45,718 bases of DNA from a virus, in the IMG/VR virus record IMGVR_UViG_3300023116_000085, positions 1 through 45,718 of that record; one strand, given 5' to 3'. Below the pieces are notes generated by a model. That model worked only from the letters and a program-made list of their open reading frames with translations. It had not been told where the DNA came from and did not search any database. This document shows positions 336 through 7,785 of the stretch, piece by piece. A program made the position numbers and the translations under genes. Every line of letters starts with the position of its first letter. Position 1 is the stretch's first letter.

Positions 336-343
336 TATTTATT
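336..343 (-). promoter_or_regulatory. Late promoter abutting a stop codon (AATAAATA)
   Basis: AATAAATA starts on the last base of the oxygenase TAA stop (343-345), forming TAAATAAATA. It lies 28 bases before the ATG of the 61-residue gene. Confidence 0.7.
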
Positions 344-927
344 TACATGTCACATAGATTGAATGAGATAGATATTCGGTTCCCCTCACAGTAATGAGGA
401 TCTACAAAATGATCTAACCAGTTTGGAAAAACGTATCCATGTCCAATTTTTGGAGTAATTCTGTGGAATACATGATGATCGTAGTATCTTCCAACTCTTG
501 TTTGAGCACGAGGATCTACAAATACTAACTGACCTTCTTTTTCTCCGAGATTTTGTGGCACATCTAAGTATAGCACACCACTAAACAAAGCAGAGGGGTG
601 GTTATGAAAAGATGAAAAGTCTCCTTTACGCATTACCATTCCCCAACAATTGATTCTGGAAATTTCTGGTGGTGGGATTGCTCTGTCTTGAGAAACAGCA
701 TGTTCCTGAATCATTGTATGAAGAAGCAACTTTAGATCTTTGGACCACTGTTCTTTTCTATTACACAAGTCATCCCTAGAATGATATCCAGTTTCCCCTC
801 TCATTGAATAAGAACGGTGCTCTTCTGGTATAGTTTCTTCTTGTAGAATATGGTTGATAATATCAAATCGAAGGGTATCAATATCTTTGATAATAAAATC
901 AGATACCCTAGTTACAAATAAATCCAT
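343..927 (-). CDS. 2OG-Fe(II) oxygenase-like protein (TIGR02466-type), copy 3
   Basis: The 194-residue product is the most typical of the three oxygenases. NCWGMVMRKGDFSSFHNHPS (His108, His110) is followed by LFSGVLYLDVP and QLVFVDPRAQ. The distal site follows with GHGYVFPNWLDHFV (His173) and NRISISFN (Arg184). These are the iron- and 2-oxoglutarate-binding positions of the family. It starts six bases after the 118-residue gene with no distinct ribosome-binding site. Its TAA stop touches the next late promoter octamer. Family members are frequent in cyanomyoviruses; substrates have not been assigned as far as I know. Confidence 0.92.
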   Translation of the reverse strand: MDLFVTRVSDFIIKDIDTLRFDIINHILQEETIPEEHRSYSMRGETGYHSRDDLCNRKEQWSKDLKLLLHTMIQEHAVSQDRAIPPPEISRINCWGMVMRKGDFSSFHNHPSALFSGVLYLDVPQNLGEKEGQLVFVDPRAQTRVGRYYDHHVFHRITPKIGHGYVFPNWLDHFVDPHYCEGNRISISFNLCDM

Positions 928-933
928 AAAATT

Positions 934-1290
934 TTAAAGTCCGTTTGGTTTTTGAATATTTTCTTTTACTGCGAGGATTGTGTCTAGCATTTCGCCTTCT
1001 GGACCTAGATCAATTCCATTGTCTCTGAGGTGTTTCATAATTTTCCAGATGGAATCAATCTGCTCAACTTCATTTGGATATGCTTCACGTCTTTTTCCAA
1101 TATAAGAAAGGTCAACTTGATCTAGATCTGGATGTCTTCTATGCTCCCAAACCATATCCTCCCATTCTTCACGAGTGTATGGTCTTTGTGTACCATCTGC
1201 TTCTACATGAATGTATTTGTCTGGTCTATCACCTTTATTGTGATAGTATGAGAGTTTCTCTGCTTTTGTAATTTCTCTTAGTTTTTTCAT
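934..1290 (-). CDS. 118-residue unrecognised protein, possibly fibre-associated
   Basis: It starts three bases after the adhesin-like gene, with AGGA in the last codons as ribosome-binding site. The protein is charged, with KYIHVEADGTQRPYTREEWE in the first half and RREAYPNEVEQIDSIWKIMK in the second. The YP-x4-QID-x-W pattern resembles the YPSxxxQLDxL motif of small proteins encoded next to phage tail-fibre genes, often assembly-related. That resemblance is weak evidence for a fibre assembly or attachment role. No membrane segment is seen. Confidence 0.7.
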   Translation of the reverse strand: MKKLREITKAEKLSYYHNKGDRPDKYIHVEADGTQRPYTREEWEDMVWEHRRHPDLDQVDLSYIGKRREAYPNEVEQIDSIWKIMKHLRDNGIDLGPEGEMLDTILAVKENIQKPNGL

Positions 1291-1293
1291 GGA

Positions 1294-2202
1294 TCAATAT
1301 CCTGTGTATGGTCCTGCTAATGGATAATCTCTAATAGATGGTTGGGTAGCATAAACAGCACAAGCAAAGTTGCAACCACTACTAACACTTCTCATCCCTT
1401 GATTATTATAAATTCTAAGTCCACCCATTGGATAAGCAGTGCTTTGATATTGAGAAGCACCTCTCCAAACTCCACCACCATAGTATGCACCACCATTTTG
1501 CTCTGTGGCACCTCCACCGTGATAGTAGAATGCCCAGTAGTTTGCAGTGCTGTTATTTGGCGTGTTTGAGAACCATAGGGTAGTTCCCCATGATGCTTCA
1601 CCGTTTGACTGCAATTCATAACTATCGTTTAGGGTAGTGATCTGGAAGTATGATCTACCACCAGTACCAGATGCATCTCTAGGACGACCATCATTTGCGT
1701 GCCAACCAGAACCCATGTGGAAATAGTTGTTGCCCGTATCTACACTACCATCTGCTTTGATAAAACGACAGTAATACTCACCATTACCACCACCTTGCTC
1801 ATAGAAGTTCATGATAACTTCATATGAGTTATAATATTGCTTGATTGGTGATCCAGTTCCAGGACCCCAAAAAATATCTAAACTAGAAAAAGGATCACTT
1901 CTTTCAACCCAAGCAACTAATTTTCTACCACCAACAGGAACCCAAAGACTATCAGATGGAGCTCCTGCAGGATTTTCATAATAATGCTCTAATTGTGCAT
2001 CATCAGTATTATATCTGATAGTTTCTGCAGTAGCAGTAGATCTTTCTGCTCTGGTTCCCCTTTCGATAGCGTTTGCAGCAAAGGGGTCAATTCCATTGAT
2101 AGTCATACCTTGTGGATAATTGACTGTTCCCGTGGAATCAATCTCCATAGCGACGTTACCACCCGACGCTCGAATTTGCCCAACTTCCAGAATACTAGCC
2201 AT
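1294..2202 (-). CDS. 302-residue glycine-rich adhesin-like protein
   Basis: The N-terminus MASILEVGQIRASGG, with a following MEIDSTGTVNYP, resembles the start of the 380-residue protein and of phage fibre tips. The segment IRYNTDDAQLEHYYENP followed by LWVPVGG is a fibre repeat of the kind also seen in the 1,790-residue protein. The C-terminal 120 residues are rich in Gly, Tyr, Asn and Ser (GGGATEQNGGAYYGGGVWRG) and end GPYTGY. Short phage adhesins often have such glycine-rich ends. It has no signal peptide or enzyme motif. It starts a new unit under its own late promoter, and a third oxygenase gene follows. Adhesin is the most likely role, but nothing proves receptor binding. Confidence 0.75.
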   Translation of the reverse strand: MASILEVGQIRASGGNVAMEIDSTGTVNYPQGMTINGIDPFAANAIERGTRAERSTATAETIRYNTDDAQLEHYYENPAGAPSDSLWVPVGGRKLVAWVERSDPFSSLDIFWGPGTGSPIKQYYNSYEVIMNFYEQGGGNGEYYCRFIKADGSVDTGNNYFHMGSGWHANDGRPRDASGTGGRSYFQITTLNDSYELQSNGEASWGTTLWFSNTPNNSTANYWAFYYHGGGATEQNGGAYYGGGVWRGASQYQSTAYPMGGLRIYNNQGMRSVSSGCNFACAVYATQPSIRDYPLAGPYTGY

Positions 2203-2231
2203 GAAAAGGCACTCAAATCTACTTTACATGT

Positions 2232-2882
2232 TTATTTATGTAGAGGAACTACCCTATAGGAATACTTGTCGTTATTAACAATTTCTGGCATAAAGTTCAT
2301 TGATATGGAAATTCTGCCATCTAATTGATTATCGCTGTATCCATGAGTTAGGTTAGACTGCCACAAAATCAATTCACCCTCTTCTGGAAAAACAAAAACA
2401 TCTGAGTTATATTTGTTTGGATTTGATTTATCACATTGCAGTGTGATAGTTGGGAAATGTGAATGTGTTGAATTTTCTGGATGCCTAAAACATAGTGGAG
2501 AATGTCCTTGTTTAAAGTTAACATAGTAAGTACCAGAAATATAAGCATTGCCATGAAAGTGTGGATATTGTCCACCACCTTTATCGCATAAGTTTAACCA
2601 GCTATCAGTAATAATCATATTACCACTGATATTATATCCCAAAGTATTTTTTACAAAATCCGTACAAGTTTTTTCCATCCATTCTCTGAATTCTAAGAAA
2701 CATTCTTTGTGTAAAAATGACTTATTAGTTTCATTATCAAAATGATATAAAGATGAATCCTTTGCATTCGGTTCCATCTCAGTTCCTTCCATAAGATCTA
2801 ATATAGTTTTTTTAGTTGGTTCTGATTTATCGTAAATGATTCTCCCAATTGCATTTGGGAAAATATCGAAGGTTTCAATCAT
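2232..2882 (-). CDS. 2OG-Fe(II) oxygenase-like protein (TIGR02466-type), copy 2
   Basis: The ATG at 2880-2882 overlaps the upstream TGA as ATGA, giving 216 residues; an upstream in-frame start (222 residues) would overlap by 22 bases and is less likely. Motifs: TDSWLNL, then YPHFHGNAYISGTYYV (His108, His110), LILWQSNLTHGY (His180) and GRISISMNF (Arg190). This is the double-stranded beta-helix layout of the 2-oxoglutarate oxygenases. It has an extra loop between the halves (PENSTHSHFP). The last codons with the TAA stop form the CATAAATA promoter octamer of the next unit. Its substrate is unknown. Confidence 0.88.
   Translation of the reverse strand: MIETFDIFPNAIGRIIYDKSEPTKKTILDLMEGTEMEPNAKDSSLYHFDNETNKSFLHKECFLEFREWMEKTCTDFVKNTLGYNISGNMIITDSWLNLCDKGGGQYPHFHGNAYISGTYYVNFKQGHSPLCFRHPENSTHSHFPTITLQCDKSNPNKYNSDVFVFPEEGELILWQSNLTHGYSDNQLDGRISISMNFMPEIVNNDKYSYRVVPLHK
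2233..2240 (-). promoter_or_regulatory. Late promoter on a stop codon (CATAAATA)
   Basis: CATAAATA overlaps the His-Lys codons and TAA stop of the oxygenase and lies 30 bases before the 302-residue gene. It differs from the T4 consensus only at the first base. Confidence 0.7.
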
Positions 2883-3433
2883 AATATTTTTACGTTCCAA
2901 GCAATACTAATTCTATCGTCATTTGATTTATTTTCCAATACTCTATGAAGTATGTTTGATGGAAAAATTAATACCCTTCCTTCCACTGGAGTAATAGAAA
3001 CTGATGGTGAAAGATTTGCTTCTTGAGAAACAGAACTAAGCAGATTGAAAGATTCAATATATGCTGGGTTTGTTAACTCAATGTCTCCAGAATTTTCTAA
3101 AGACTTCACATACATCACAACAGAAAGATCTGATCCTGGGTGTGTATGTCTTTCATTAAAAGTTTTTGGTGGATTGATATTTATCCACGGCATACTGAAA
3201 GCAAAATTTGATGTCAGATATTTTGAAAGACAATCTGAAATTTCTTTGTATACATCTTCAAGTAAATCAATCTGTTTGTGTTCAGATTGCCATCCTCCGA
3301 TATTTGATATTGTAACTCCTGCACTTTCTTTTTGATCTTGATAGCAATACCTAACCAATTTATTTCTATAATCTAGATAATTTTCTAGATCATGTGCGAT
3401 TAATTGAATTGGAAATAATGGGAATAGTTTCAT
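2879..3433 (-). CDS. 2OG-Fe(II) oxygenase-like protein (TIGR02466-type), copy 1
   Basis: The ATG at 3431-3433 forms an ATGA overlap with the upstream stop, giving 184 residues; an upstream in-frame ATG (195 residues) would overlap by 37 bases and adds cysteine-containing residues not expected in the family. Expected residues are present: ERHTHPGSD (His96, His98), FPSNILHRV (His163) and RISIAWN (Arg174). These fit the non-haem iron and 2-oxoglutarate sites of small phage oxygenases, which hydroxylate an unknown substrate. The copies differ greatly in sequence, so they are not recent duplicates. The stop overlaps the next gene's ATG. Confidence 0.85.
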   Translation of the reverse strand: MKLFPLFPIQLIAHDLENYLDYRNKLVRYCYQDQKESAGVTISNIGGWQSEHKQIDLLEDVYKEISDCLSKYLTSNFAFSMPWININPPKTFNERHTHPGSDLSVVMYVKSLENSGDIELTNPAYIESFNLLSSVSQEANLSPSVSITPVEGRVLIFPSNILHRVLENKSNDDRISIAWNVKIL

Positions 3434-5127
3434 TTCTTCAGTACAAAAATTACAATACCATTCCACCAGGAGTTAGAGTCTTCCAACTCATCTGTAAGAA
3501 TGATTCTCTCATACAAAATGTCTAGTTTATTTTCGGATGCAAACTCCTTTGCAGATTCTACCACATCTTTAAAATTTGCATCGTCTACAATAAGGATAAA
3601 CTCATCCTCTGTGTAATTAAGAATATGATTTAAACAAGACTTCTGGACGGATCCATCATGGTCTGCATCATAAAAAATAGTGTTGACTTTCTTATCCAAG
3701 TTTTCTTCCGTAGCAATACGAATATCACCATTTAGAATAGCGATGTTGCTGTTGTCAGTCCATGTAGTTTTGACGTTTTCAATAAACTTTTCAATAGATC
3801 CTTCTTCACCAGACCACTTGATATCATCTCTTACTGGTCTGATGTTCTTATCTTCCCAATGATCAGCAGCGTATGCAGTGAGATCGTTGCCTTGGATAGC
3901 AGCACAGAATGTACTTCCATTGTATACACCAACTTCTAGATACTTGGTGTCGTCATAGGAACAGATATTATTGAGGAAGTGCCTGACAGTATTAGATGAC
4001 AGACCTTCGATGTCATGATTAAACTTAGATTCTTTCTTTGTTGCTTTTTCTATAGAATCTAAACAACGTTGAATATATGGGTGCAACTCACGATCTTGTT
4101 TTTTAAGGTGTGCGTCAACGACAGACTCACAGTAATTACAGTCCCAGCAATCAAACTTACATGTTTTGATCTTGTCTCTCCAAATATCAATAGGACGATC
4201 TTTCATATCAAGATCTTCCATATATGGATCAAGTTGTGGGAAGAGTAGTTCTTCTTCTCTGTCCCATCTCTCAATGATATCCATAGACTCTTTCAGACGC
4301 ATCATACTCTCGCGTCCGTGCATCTTGAATACATCAATACCTAGATCAAGGAATTCTTGCCAGTCTTCTCTCCAAGGTGGAATGTTTGCTGCTTTTAATG
4401 ATACAGCAGCATCCTCATACTGCCAGGTAGAGCAAGAGACTCTACTAATAGAATCATTAAAATATTGTGGACCATCTCCACATCTTGTAGCATTGAATTG
4501 ATAATGCTCTGGCATGATAGGACAACCGCCCCAGCATCCTTCATTAGCAAGTAGAGAAAGCTTTACTGGTTTGTCAATAGAAGCACAATATTCTTTAGCA
4601 TCAATAATACGCTCTAGTTGCTCCCTATCACGCATCAGGTCTCTGTCTAGATTGACATAATGAAATCCTGCCTTGGCTGCAGCAACTACTTCATTGGGTC
4701 TAGTAACCTCGCGTAGAATAGTATTCTTAATATACAGTTCAGGAAATTCTTTCTGAATCTGTCCTGTAGATACCCATGTTGTATGTGGTAGAGTTACAAT
4801 ACGAATACCTTTATGGTATAGTGGTTTAAAGTTCTCTATCCACAAATCTAGATTTTTCTGATCTGGTCTTACCCACATATTATTGAAAGTGGCAGAAAGG
4901 GGAATTCCAGTCTGATCCGCAATCCATAAAGCATTGATAGTTGTTCCCCTTACTGGATCTTTTACAAAGATATCTCCCATCGCATCTTGACCAAATGGTT
5001 CGATGCGACATGTAAAATATAGATCATAGATCAAATCTTTATTCTTTTTCAAGAAAGGAATAAAGTGGTCTTGTGTAAACTTCCAATCAGATTTCGGGTT
5101 GATCGGTAGACTGAAGATACTTCGCAT
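3430..5127 (-). CDS. U32-peptidase-like domain fused to a class I methyltransferase
   Basis: I chose the ATG at 5125-5127 (565 residues) because AAGGA lies eight bases upstream; an ATG nine bases earlier has the same AAGG with no spacing. Residues below count from that earlier ATG. Residues ~5-340 look like a U32-family barrel: FSLPINP near the start, ANEGCWGGCP (Cys201, Cys205), GIDVFKMHGR (~266-275), which matches the U32 FKIEGR signature, and a cysteine cluster C326-x3-C330-x2-C333-x2-C336 that could hold an iron-sulfur cluster. Residues ~380-568 look like an SAM-dependent methyltransferase: YLEVGVYNGST (motif I), then IFYDADHDGS and LIVDD. Known U32 enzymes hydroxylate tRNA, rRNA or ubiquinone precursors rather than cut proteins. 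The substrate here is unknown. The stop TGA overlaps the next start as ATGA. Confidence 0.75.
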   Translation of the reverse strand: MRSIFSLPINPKSDWKFTQDHFIPFLKKNKDLIYDLYFTCRIEPFGQDAMGDIFVKDPVRGTTINALWIADQTGIPLSATFNNMWVRPDQKNLDLWIENFKPLYHKGIRIVTLPHTTWVSTGQIQKEFPELYIKNTILREVTRPNEVVAAAKAGFHYVNLDRDLMRDREQLERIIDAKEYCASIDKPVKLSLLANEGCWGGCPIMPEHYQFNATRCGDGPQYFNDSISRVSCSTWQYEDAAVSLKAANIPPWREDWQEFLDLGIDVFKMHGRESMMRLKESMDIIERWDREEELLFPQLDPYMEDLDMKDRPIDIWRDKIKTCKFDCWDCNYCESVVDAHLKKQDRELHPYIQRCLDSIEKATKKESKFNHDIEGLSSNTVRHFLNNICSYDDTKYLEVGVYNGSTFCAAIQGNDLTAYAADHWEDKNIRPVRDDIKWSGEEGSIEKFIENVKTTWTDNSNIAILNGDIRIATEENLDKKVNTIFYDADHDGSVQKSCLNHILNYTEDEFILIVDDANFKDVVESAKEFASENKLDILYERIILTDELEDSNSWWNGIVIFVLKK

Positions 5128-5842
5128 TAATTTCATCCTTAATTTGATCTAGTAGAGGTACGTTCATTGTTTCCTCAATTCCGTGGAATGTAGGAATGTT
5201 TACATCAGGAGACTCTGCATATGCCTTGAAGTATTTTTCCGTTCTTCCAGTAATCTTATCCATGGAAAGTTTCATAAGACATGAATACTGGGAAGCGACA
5301 TCGAGGATTGCAATCTGATCTTCTTGCTTCATCATAGCAATAGAATCTAAATTACCAGTACCTACTCTACCATGAGCCATAAGATCTAAAGCAGCTTGTT
5401 TGCCCATTCTAGCAATCCAATACTTTCTTTCTTCCTCTTCATTCCACTCTGATGCTTTTTCAAGTTCTTCTTTAGTGGTAATATGTTTTTGAATATGTTC
5501 CACAAAAACATTTAGTTCATAAGATAACTGGGACTTTCTTCTTTCCCACATCTCTAGATCTAACTTGGCATCATCTACTTCAATCTCCGCTTCTTCTTTT
5601 TCAAAAGCGGTTTCTGCATTATCTAATCTATCTTGAGCAATCTTAACGGCGAGAGCACTTCTTCTCTCACCAATTTTCATTTTCTCAAAGTTATGCAATC
5701 TATTTTCAATTTCAAGCATAACCTGTTTTAGTTGCCTATCTCCAGTTACATGAGACTTAATTACATAGTCATCTATTTGATTTTTTGACATGCCAATAGC
5801 AACCTTTTTGGCAAGTTCAAATATTTCTTCTGTTGTGATCAT
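5087..5842 (-). CDS. Unrecognised 251-residue coiled-coil protein
   Basis: Residues ~30-130 are strongly charged and helical with heptad-like spacing (AVKIAQDRLDNAETAFEKEE, then LDLEMWERRKSQLSYEL), indicating a long coiled coil. The following segment KYWIARMGKQAALDLMAHGR and TGNLDSIAMM looks like a small globular helical domain. It starts 21 bases after the previous gene with a weak ribosome-binding site and no promoter motif. Its 3' end overlaps the next gene by 41 bases. It may be an assembly chaperone or scaffold for the neighbouring adhesin; I recall no named family. Confidence 0.7.
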   Translation of the reverse strand: MITTEEIFELAKKVAIGMSKNQIDDYVIKSHVTGDRQLKQVMLEIENRLHNFEKMKIGERRSALAVKIAQDRLDNAETAFEKEEAEIEVDDAKLDLEMWERRKSQLSYELNVFVEHIQKHITTKEELEKASEWNEEEERKYWIARMGKQAALDLMAHGRVGTGNLDSIAMMKQEDQIAILDVASQYSCLMKLSMDKITGRTEKYFKAYAESPDVNIPTFHGIEETMNVPLLDQIKDEINAKYLQSTDQPEI

Positions 5843-5863
5843 AACTAAATCAAAAATAATAAC

Positions 5864-6607
5864 TTAGAATTTAATACCAGGAGCGACGGGATTTTGCGAT
5901 CTTGTTTGTTCATCAATTCTCTTTTCATCCTTTGCCTGTTCATAAGGCATTGGGATTCCCATCTTATCCTCATATAGTCTATTTAGTTGCCTAATAGTAG
6001 AGCATCTGTAGAACTGCTGTTTTAAAGAATTCATATTGATAAACAATTCTTTAGTTGCTAACCTATATGATTCTTTCTTCTCTAAAATAGAATCCTTCAA
6101 TTTTTCAACTGTGATGCCCTTAGCACCTGCTAATTCAGACAGAATAAAATCAGTTCCATTATTAAGATCTTCTGAAATATAATCCCAGTTTTTCTTTTCT
6201 AATTCAGACACTCCATCATCTAGAGATTTAAATCTTGTTTCAAATGTATCTTCAATGATAACCTTAGCAAACAATTTCATTGTTTTCAAGACAGTATTAT
6301 ATCTTTTATCTGTCATTGGAATAGCAATCTTTGAAGACATTGAAGTGTCATAATATGACAAAACATCAAACTCCGTATTCAATTCCACATCAGCAGAGGA
6401 GATTTTGATGGTTGATCTAATATCTCCCCAACTTCTCATACCAAAGATTGCCATTTCTTTGTCAATCTCTACCGCATACCCTGGTAGTAATTTTGCTTCT
6501 TCCTCTTCAATTGAAAAACAATTCCAATCTAGAATATTGTTGATTGGTGCAAATGATCTCAAGACCGAGGAATCAAATGTATTTTTGCAAATAAAGTATC
6601 TTCTCAT
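5864..6607 (-). CDS. Unrecognised 247-residue protein
   Basis: The ATG lies two bases after the 380-residue gene and has AGGAG (inside that gene's last codons) about seven bases upstream, which fixes the start. The protein has a mixed N-terminal half (RSFAPINNILDWNCF) and a helical, charged C-terminal half (residues ~140-235). It has no signal peptide and no recognisable enzyme motif. Placement directly behind an adhesin-like gene suggests a fibre-associated structural or assembly role, which is only inferred. Confidence 0.7.
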   Translation of the reverse strand: MRRYFICKNTFDSSVLRSFAPINNILDWNCFSIEEEEAKLLPGYAVEIDKEMAIFGMRSWGDIRSTIKISSADVELNTEFDVLSYYDTSMSSKIAIPMTDKRYNTVLKTMKLFAKVIIEDTFETRFKSLDDGVSELEKKNWDYISEDLNNGTDFILSELAGAKGITVEKLKDSILEKKESYRLATKELFINMNSLKQQFYRCSTIRQLNRLYEDKMGIPMPYEQAKDEKRIDEQTRSQNPVAPGIKF

Positions 6608-6609
6608 TT

Positions 6610-7752
6610 TTAGACTCCTGTGTATCCAGTTGCTAGTGTACCATATTCCATAGCAGCACCAGATGCTCTACCCCCTGGTCCCGTTGAGTTTAGTGAGGAA
6701 CTGAATGTAAAACTATGAGTAGAGTAGTTAAATGATCCTCCAGTATTGTTCTGAGCGCCATTATACATGCCGTTCATGAAACCATAATCCATACCTGTGT
6801 GGAAAGTTTCTTCTCCTGTATTTCCTGGTTTAGAAACAGATTGAAGGTTAGAACCAGAAGCAGTATCTCTTCTCGTCATAGCAGCGTTGGTTTGATAACC
6901 ACCTGCTTCATTCCAGTAAGAGAATCCTTTTCTACTAGAAACTGTTTTATTAGTTCCATCTGTTCCTGGAGGAGAACCCCAAGAGGTCCATGACTGTGTG
7001 GCGAAGTCAAACAAATATGCATTTCCACCTTGCTTATACATTCCATTATTTTCGCCATAACCACATGCTGGGTTGTTTCCACCAGATCCACCAGATCCAG
7101 CAACTGTAGTCACACCATCATTTGTCAAGTCATATCTATCTGGACGATCTCCATTGTCTCCACAAACATATGCATACTTAAAGTCTCTTTTCATAATTGA
7201 AGTTCTGTTTCTGGCAGTTGCCATAGAAGTAGCAGTTCCTGCATTTGTTTCGGTTGTCATACTGAAAGTCGAAACATTAGTGCTATTGGTGTTCCAGTTA
7301 TCACCTGAACAATATACATATGCTCTCATATTGGCATTCTGAGCACCTGCAGTATATGCATCCGAGTATGTTAAGAGATCGCCTAAATTGGATATTGTAA
7401 ATGTAGAGTGTGCTAATCTATTAACATTTTTCCAAGAAGATGAGGATTGATATCCTGCTGCGGGATATCCTCTAGTGATAGCAAATCCATCTTCAAAATT
7501 AACAATAATTTCCCAATATGCATTGACACCATCAGACTTTAGAACAGCGCCTGCAGTAGTACCTTCTTGTCCCACTGGGATTTGTTCTGGCAATGTGGAG
7601 AATGGTTGACCGTTAACCAACAAATCATTGTTGCCAATGTCAATATCTCCACCAAAGGTACATGAACCATCAGTGTTTAGTGAAATGTTGGGTGTTGTAG
7701 ATTGACCAGCTGCTGTATACTTCAGCTGGTCAACTCTTAATTCGGACGCCAT
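6610..7752 (-). CDS. 380-residue adhesin-like protein, possibly a kelch-type propeller
   Basis: The N-terminus MASELRVDQLKYTAAGQ and the segment to residue ~50 resemble fibre attachment regions; the 302-residue protein downstream starts in a similar way. From about residue 100 there are spaced strands that look like kelch blades: AYVYCSGDN (~144), YAYVCGDN...RYDL (~193-209), YLFDFATQSW (~246) and FNYSTHSF (~341). A glycine-rich linker lies near residue 220. It ends ATGYTGV. A short virion adhesin or fibre tip is the likely role. The propeller is inferred from pattern alone. It is the first gene of a tightly packed unit, and its 3' end carries AGGAG, which serves the next gene. Confidence 0.75.
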   Translation of the reverse strand: MASELRVDQLKYTAAGQSTTPNISLNTDGSCTFGGDIDIGNNDLLVNGQPFSTLPEQIPVGQEGTTAGAVLKSDGVNAYWEIIVNFEDGFAITRGYPAAGYQSSSSWKNVNRLAHSTFTISNLGDLLTYSDAYTAGAQNANMRAYVYCSGDNWNTNSTNVSTFSMTTETNAGTATSMATARNRTSIMKRDFKYAYVCGDNGDRPDRYDLTNDGVTTVAGSGGSGGNNPACGYGENNGMYKQGGNAYLFDFATQSWTSWGSPPGTDGTNKTVSSRKGFSYWNEAGGYQTNAAMTRRDTASGSNLQSVSKPGNTGEETFHTGMDYGFMNGMYNGAQNNTGGSFNYSTHSFTFSSSLNSTGPGGRASGAAMEYGTLATGYTGV

Positions 7753-7777
7753 GGATACTCAATTATCACGCTATGTA

Positions 7778-7785
7778 TATTTAGA
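7778..7785 (-). promoter_or_regulatory. Late promoter-like octamer on the fibre stop codon (TCTAAATA)
   Basis: TCTAAATA contains the TAA stop (7781-7783) of the 2,902-residue gene and lies 25 bases before the 380-residue gene. It is a C variant of the T4 motif. The conserved position supports it. Confidence 0.55.

Follow-up and report, generated by a model that had tools for sequence, protein, structure and literature searches.

Adhesin-linked gene units coding for a U32-like–methyltransferase fusion and 2OG-Fe(II) oxygenases in a T4-like cyanophage: candidate cassettes for adhesin maturation

The 45.7-kb IMG/VR virus record IMGVR_UViG_3300023116_000085, analyzed here over its whole length of 45,718 nucleotides (nt; henceforth the window), comes from a marine relative of the T4-like cyanophages, with its genes coded on the minus strand. 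It contains two adjacent units in which an adhesin-like protein is followed by small partner proteins and then by enzymes: a fusion of a U32-like and a methyltransferase-like domain (U32MT) with two 2-oxoglutarate (2OG)-Fe(II) oxygenases in unit 1, and a single such oxygenase in unit 2. We found that U32MT and the unit 2 oxygenase are obligately paired with their adhesins in related phages, and that the enzymes conserve candidate catalytic residues. With moderate confidence, we lean toward the view that these enzymes hydroxylate, and in unit 1 also O-methylate, the newly made adhesin, each unit constituting a self-contained maturation cassette.

Unit 1 has the gene order adh380 (6610..7752), p247 (5864..6607), p251 (5087..5842), U32MT (3430..5136), oxyC (2879..3433) and oxyB (2232..2882), and unit 2 the order adh302 (1294..2202), s118 (934..1290) and oxyA (343..927), all on the minus strand. 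In unit 1, adh380 and p247 are separated by 2 nt and p247 and p251 by 21 nt, p251 overlaps U32MT by 50 nt, and ATGA overlaps join U32MT to oxyC and oxyC to oxyB; adh302 follows oxyB after 29 nt, with gaps of 3 nt between adh302 and s118 and 6 nt between s118 and oxyA. An earlier interpretation made from the letters of the window (the sequence-only reading) had proposed two parallel promoter–adhesin–enzyme units, and all nine of its open reading frames (ORFs) are present at the places and on the strand that it gave. The ATGA overlaps also stand, and its 41-base overlap between p251 and U32MT applies when U32MT is taken to start at its second ATG. It had further placed a late octamer on the stop codon upstream of each unit, and this is borne out: the late-promoter-like octamers TCTAAATA (7778..7785, minus strand) and CATAAATA (2233..2240, minus strand) overlap the stop codons of a gene for a 2902-amino-acid fiber and of oxyB, respectively. 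Both are T4-type late elements (xxTAAATA) and precede the two adhesins by 31 and 36 nt; no such element was found before any of the seven accessory genes (p247, p251, U32MT, oxyC, oxyB, s118 and oxyA). Thus, the nine genes appear to form two transcription units, with two late transcripts being the simplest reading. Over the whole window, the coding (minus) strand has 23 TAAATA sites and the other strand 8. As a separate observation, such elements lie 25–60 nt ahead of gp25 and of most structural gene starts, and could serve as a late-promoter map.

Evidence for the pairing comes from the gene content of related loci. Genes were called as ORFs for these comparisons, and loci were retrieved as the best 80 matches, so close relatives are over-represented in the counts. 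First, p247, p251 and U32MT are present at each of the 50 adh380 loci that extend more than 2.6 kb downstream, and reverse retrieval by U32MT in viral contigs recovered adh380, p247 and p251 upstream as a rule. Matches in the phage collection number 123 records for U32MT and 123 for p251, with organism tallies identical between the two, and 117 for adh380; many near-identical isolates are among them. Second, the oxyA relatives scoring above 200 bits (34–100% identity) lie directly downstream of adh302 and s118 in 17 of 17 cases (18 of 18 if one relative at 170 bits with a weak adh302 is counted), compared to 0 of 17 among those below 100 bits. The linkage is obligate in both units; the sequence-only reading had looked to related phages for a conserved adhesin–enzyme pairing, and this is what they display. 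Third, four long-stalked adhesins (L028, L031, L037 and L045) have in common with adh380 only what follows the stalk, yet they keep the same three partners. Thus, p247, p251 and U32MT go with the adhesin tip. The pairwise divergence of adh380 tracks that of p251, p247 and U32MT (r of 0.94, 0.90 and 0.87, with distances that are not independent), and its correlation with the divergence of the neighboring fiber falls to a partial r of −0.15 once U32MT is held constant.

The 2OG-type enzymes of unit 1 show a looser association. At least one such gene occurs near U32MT in 47 of 49 distinct loci, with a mean of 2.5; for 9.2-kb windows drawn at random from eight phages, the values are 31% and 0.49. 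Tandem arrays of different 2OG-type enzymes, often three to six, are found at many U32MT loci (e.g., L069, L059, L068 and L035). In two of these arrays (L059:2513-4777 and L069:3566-5836), U32MT is followed by three to four genes for oxygenases from different subfamilies, each overlapping the next or nearly so.

The units are also inherited and moved as blocks. The sister phages P-HM1 and P-HM2 are 73–86% identical in the flanks of the site, where P-HM1 has unit 2 and P-HM2 the core of unit 1. In phage ACG-2014d, a trio of the adh302-s118-oxyA type is found intact near purM, psbA and psbD, and its oxygenase still falls within the oxyA clade.

All three oxygenases belong to PF13759/TIGR02466/phrog_81, with Pfam scores of 69.8, 61.6 and 69.6 bits over the catalytic half against a curated cut-off of 27 and TIGR02466 scores above cut-off; oxyA corresponds to T4-GC101. 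An HxH...H...R pattern of candidate metal-ligand and 2OG-binding residues, with His in place of the classical Asp/Glu as the second residue, is invariant in their alignments, and their nearest solved relatives (3bvc and 2rg4) were deposited as uncharacterized proteins. Cyanophages code for up to 24 2OG oxygenases per genome, for which roles in host metabolism or DNA repair have been proposed (PMC3037559, PMC9602691). Accordingly, oxyA, oxyB and oxyC might be metabolic or repair genes (2-oxoglutarate/nitrogen signaling or DNA repair) that came by chance to lie in a hypervariable island. Of the 37 strong PF13759-type oxygenases in eight whole phages, 8 have an MxSxLxV adhesin no more than five genes upstream, versus 2.0 expected (permutation p about 4e-4), and the remaining 29 are located elsewhere. 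We therefore rejected an adhesin linkage of the family as a whole: most of its members probably have other jobs, and only particular lineages are adhesin-dedicated. Indeed, adhesin-adjacent members cluster in the oxygenase tree, with 8 label changes versus 20.7 after shuffling and 0 of 500 shuffles as low. The oxyA clade is adhesin-adjacent in 11 of 11 members (support 100/99) and the starred set containing oxyB in 16 of 17, with near-copies contributing to clustering of this kind. By this tree, the adhesin-adjacent oxygenases form separate, nearly exclusive clades. The sequence-only reading had named enzymes lying as often away from adhesins as the finding that would speak against it; that is the case for PF13759 at large, but not for these lineages. 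As chance gives neither the 50-of-50 and 17-of-17 linkages, nor the relocation of an intact trio, nor adhesin-specific clades, we consider a purely metabolic or repair role very unlikely for the adhesin-linked lineages.

U32MT (568 amino acids; phrog_1458; T4-GC354) combines a U32-like part, a putative TIM barrel, with a class I O-methyltransferase-like domain, in agreement with its initial description as a U32–methyltransferase. Its C-terminal part matches Methyltransf_24 above the Pfam cut-off, and the model of this part retrieves class I methyltransferases, including SpnH, NovP, MycF and TrmR (8k1f), by Foldseek with E-values down to 1e-7. D490 and D518-D519 are invariant in the alignment, as expected of an S-adenosylmethionine-site signature. 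The N-terminal part has no match in the Pfam scan, and a profile made from it finds bacterial PF01136-positive proteins (L109, L105 and L111; E 2.5e-9 to 1e-6). Its model displays eight strands alternating with helices in a TIM-barrel-like order, with MTHFR-type barrels and no U32 entry among the top 50 Foldseek matches; the designation U32-like hence follows the profile evidence and not Foldseek.

Nine cysteines of U32MT (C43, C184, C201, C205, C235, C326, C330, C333 and C336) show no variation across 37 phage sequences. The first four resemble C39, C180, C193 and C197 of UbiV, which hold a 4Fe-4S cluster; UbiU and UbiV are U32 proteins that act as O2-independent hydroxylases (PMC6747719). 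The spacing is X16 in U32MT (C43-Xn-C184-X16-C201-X3-C205) versus X12 in UbiV (CXnCX12CX3C), and the equivalent of C184 is missing in a bacterial relative (L097, see below). Compared to UbiU/UbiV and TrhP/RlhA, U32MT has an extra invariant CX3CX2CX2C group and the fused O-methyltransferase-like domain, and it is nearly confined to phages, where it is adhesin-linked.

TrhP and RlhA are U32-type RNA hydroxylases, and TrmR is a methyltransferase acting on ho5U34 (PMC6599085). U32MT could thus be imagined to modify tRNA, hydroxylating the wobble uridine and O-methylating it to 5-methoxyuridine for better translation of late mRNA, and TrmR is among the structural matches of its methyltransferase domain. 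However, TrmR is just one among hundreds of class I methyltransferase matches. Further, the N-terminal profile, which fits the other U32 branch, reaches TrhP/RlhA-like proteins only at E about 1 (L103 and L110; no match among those listed for L106), and the TrhP/RlhA motif CX6CX15CX3/4C is absent from U32MT, with its UbiV-like cysteine pattern. Nor does tRNA modification account for the obligate pairing with one adhesin or for the bacterial context described below. The phage U32 domain is, by profile and motif, not of the TrhP/RlhA branch, making RNA a less likely substrate; we rejected the tRNA reading as the main explanation on these grounds and regard it as highly improbable. The TrhP and TrmR pathway offers the same two-step idea of U32 hydroxylation followed by O-methylation, and, by analogy with it (PMC6599085), the natural reading of the fusion would be that both steps occur within one protein, albeit with a U32 domain of another branch and in the genomic context of an adhesin rather than of translation.

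We term adh380 (phrog_1417; orthologue of T4-GC351, "sericin 1 precursor-like") and adh302 (phrog_2415; T4-GC515) adhesin-like because they begin with MASxLxV, are homologous to proteins of the cyanophage tail region, and fit this designation in position and composition. With a pLDDT of 46, the AlphaFold model is too poor to assign a fold to adh380, and a weak Kelch hint (E 0.04–0.06) is not claimed. A profile search of the PDB found no relative of either adhesin, nor of the obligate partners p247 (phrog_1604; T4-GC352) and p251 (phrog_1409; T4-GC353). DUF7179, tried as a marker of p247, gave no match, with the control likewise without signal; p247 might be an assembly helper or a targeting factor. 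The protein s118 (phrog_2504; T4-GC516), which always comes directly after an adhesin, has a YPxxxEQxDxxW motif, and its position and YPxxxEQLD signature make it a likely adhesin chaperone. Neither its 11 members nor distant relatives matched Pfam, and no named chaperone family was matched. Diverse small proteins that follow adhesins in S-WAM2 (97381), Syn33_048 and S-CAM4 (98313) likewise contain YPxxxEQLD or a related motif and have YPKP-like C-termini. They adjoin adhesins or oxygenases and might constitute a wide, unnamed candidate chaperone family.

Assembly chaperones are typically encoded directly behind fiber genes. Hence, p247, p251, U32MT and s118 could all have a structural or assembly role for the adhesin, with the enzyme folds being catalytically dead and acting as chaperones or scaffolds; p247 and p251 indeed lack an enzymatic signature. 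However, the nine cysteines invariant across 37 U32MT sequences and the invariant HxH...H...R of the oxygenases suggest catalysis, and we hold a wholly non-enzymatic role to be quite unlikely.

A parallel comes from a Desulfocapsa metagenome contig (L097:1-4316). It codes for a U32-type domain that stands alone, without a methyltransferase, is about 42% identical to the phage domain and has cysteine groups similar to those of U32MT. On one side of its gene is the C-terminal part of an RTX protein and on the other a C39-type ABC exporter, all on the same strand with gaps of about 50 and 130 nt; this row is a possible bacterial adhesin modification operon. The standalone domain was found neither on plasmids nor in the other Desulfobacterota genomes of a 395-genome sample, from which PF13759 was absent as well. 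No shared theme emerged among the genes neighboring the bacterial U32 branch.

Two readings of the substrate survive, namely the adhesin itself and the receptor used by it. Under the second, the enzymes would have the host surface as their target, be it lipopolysaccharide or another glycan, and would alter the receptor of the paired adhesin; infected cells and their debris would thereby stop binding progeny or competing phages. The resemblance of the U32MT methyltransferase model to the sugar O-methyltransferases SpnH, NovP and MycF agrees with this, as do the pelagimyophage glycosyltransferases in the same region, which are thought to alter the host surface (PMC7029224). A surface-directed activity likewise predicts tight adhesin–enzyme pairing. 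However, the enzyme genes appear to be late and co-transcribed, behind an adhesin and its small partner, whereas superinfection exclusion is usually exerted by early or middle genes. Further, no glycosyltransferase was found in either unit, and the RTX-U32-exporter row has no receptor role. We therefore judge modification of the host surface to be unlikely; the late operon position, small partners, tip-specific linkage and RTX-exporter parallel favor the adhesin as the substrate.

If the adhesin is the substrate, it would be made late in infection together with its helpers (s118; p247 and p251) and modifying enzymes, with the helpers probably holding or presenting the unfolded or newly trimerized adhesin. 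In unit 2, the dedicated oxyA would hydroxylate adh302. In unit 1, the U32 domain would hydroxylate adh380, the fused methyltransferase domain would O-methylate the new hydroxyl, and oxyC and oxyB might add further hydroxyls. The modified tip could then bind a host surface receptor or be stabilized. More broadly, and as a tentative proposal that we are somewhat inclined to doubt, portable adhesin-specific cassettes of marine and freshwater cyanophages might use O2-independent U32 hydroxylase-methyltransferases and arrays of different 2OG oxygenases to hydroxylate and methylate the receptor-binding tip.

Several points weigh against adhesin modification. The 4Fe-4S cluster of UbiV is air-sensitive (PMC6747719), which would be odd in an oxygenic host. 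The majority of PF13759-type oxygenases (29 of 37) lie away from adhesins. Two loci, P-HM2 and L033, have no 2OG gene near U32MT; P-HM2 in particular implies that the oxygenases are not obligatory in unit 1. Finally, p247 and p251 lack recognizable PDB relatives, and the RTX-U32 case is a single metagenome-assembled contig, with the domain present in a single genome among the 395 sampled from its phylum.

Both units sit between the gene for the 2902-amino-acid fiber and a small gene that precedes gp13 in relatives, near the neck genes; giant fiber genes occupy the middle of the window, and gp25-like and gp6-like genes its right end. In cyano- and pelagimyophages, the hypervariable tail-fiber island between VrlC and the neck genes is the host recognition cluster (PMC7029224). 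It shares the genomic place and the type of content, fibers and variable enzymes, with the two units. As published, it names fibers and glycosyltransferases, but does not define adhesin-specific enzyme cassettes or obligate pairing. All genes of the units other than the three oxygenases match already catalogued cyanophage families of unknown function; the T4-GC numbers given above are the labels used in GenBank notes. Among the cyanophage 2OG oxygenases, oxyA, oxyB and oxyC fall in the pfam13759 subgroup, and here form distinct lineages tied to adhesins. The nearest architecture is that of the bacterial adhesins AIDA-I/Aah and HMW1A/HMW1C, in which the adhesin gene and its own modifying enzyme share one operon; there the modification is glycosylation, as against the hydroxylase and methyltransferase families of the phage units. 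In the phage units, the dedicated enzyme accompanies its adhesin throughout (50 of 50 for the unit 1 core and 17 of 17 for unit 2). Among the papers searched, none described adhesin-dedicated cassettes or hydroxylated or methylated phage fibers.

The pairing gives a part of the cyanophage 2OG oxygenases a concrete, testable role. If cassettes of this kind act on the tip, host recognition would rely on side chains made by enzymes, which the fiber sequence does not reveal, the large number of 2OG oxygenases in many cyanophages would be explained, and U32MT would extend the U32 hydroxylases to a new kind of substrate. With modified tips, both sequence-based prediction of host recognition and the making of working receptor-binding proteins from cloned genes would have to include the modifying genes.

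Related oxygenases also appear under other annotations. Three genes labeled "DNA endonuclease V (denV)" (L082:13698-14198 and L085:14377-14886, both directly after U32MT, and L091:3334-3933, near U32MT) belong to phrog_274 and resemble 2OG-Fe(II) oxygenases (PF13640, E 5e-7 in S-CAM4; HxD...H...R). The family phrog_274 also matches oxyC, and the denV label is likely a misannotation. Genes annotated as "minor coat protein" (L086:14076-14792, L091:9706-10416 and L163:17720-18436) match DUF6445 (PF20043). One of them has a weak 2OG-FeII_Oxy_3 match; they adjoin adhesins and oxygenases and may themselves be oxygenases. The S-RIM32 oxygenase (L083:13318-13905) is annotated with 96 amino acids, seemingly from an internal start, whereas the full ORF has 195. 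In S-RSM4, seven 2OG-type genes are packed into less than 6 kb (89.3–95.0 kb) between an MSQLNV adhesin and a giant fiber.

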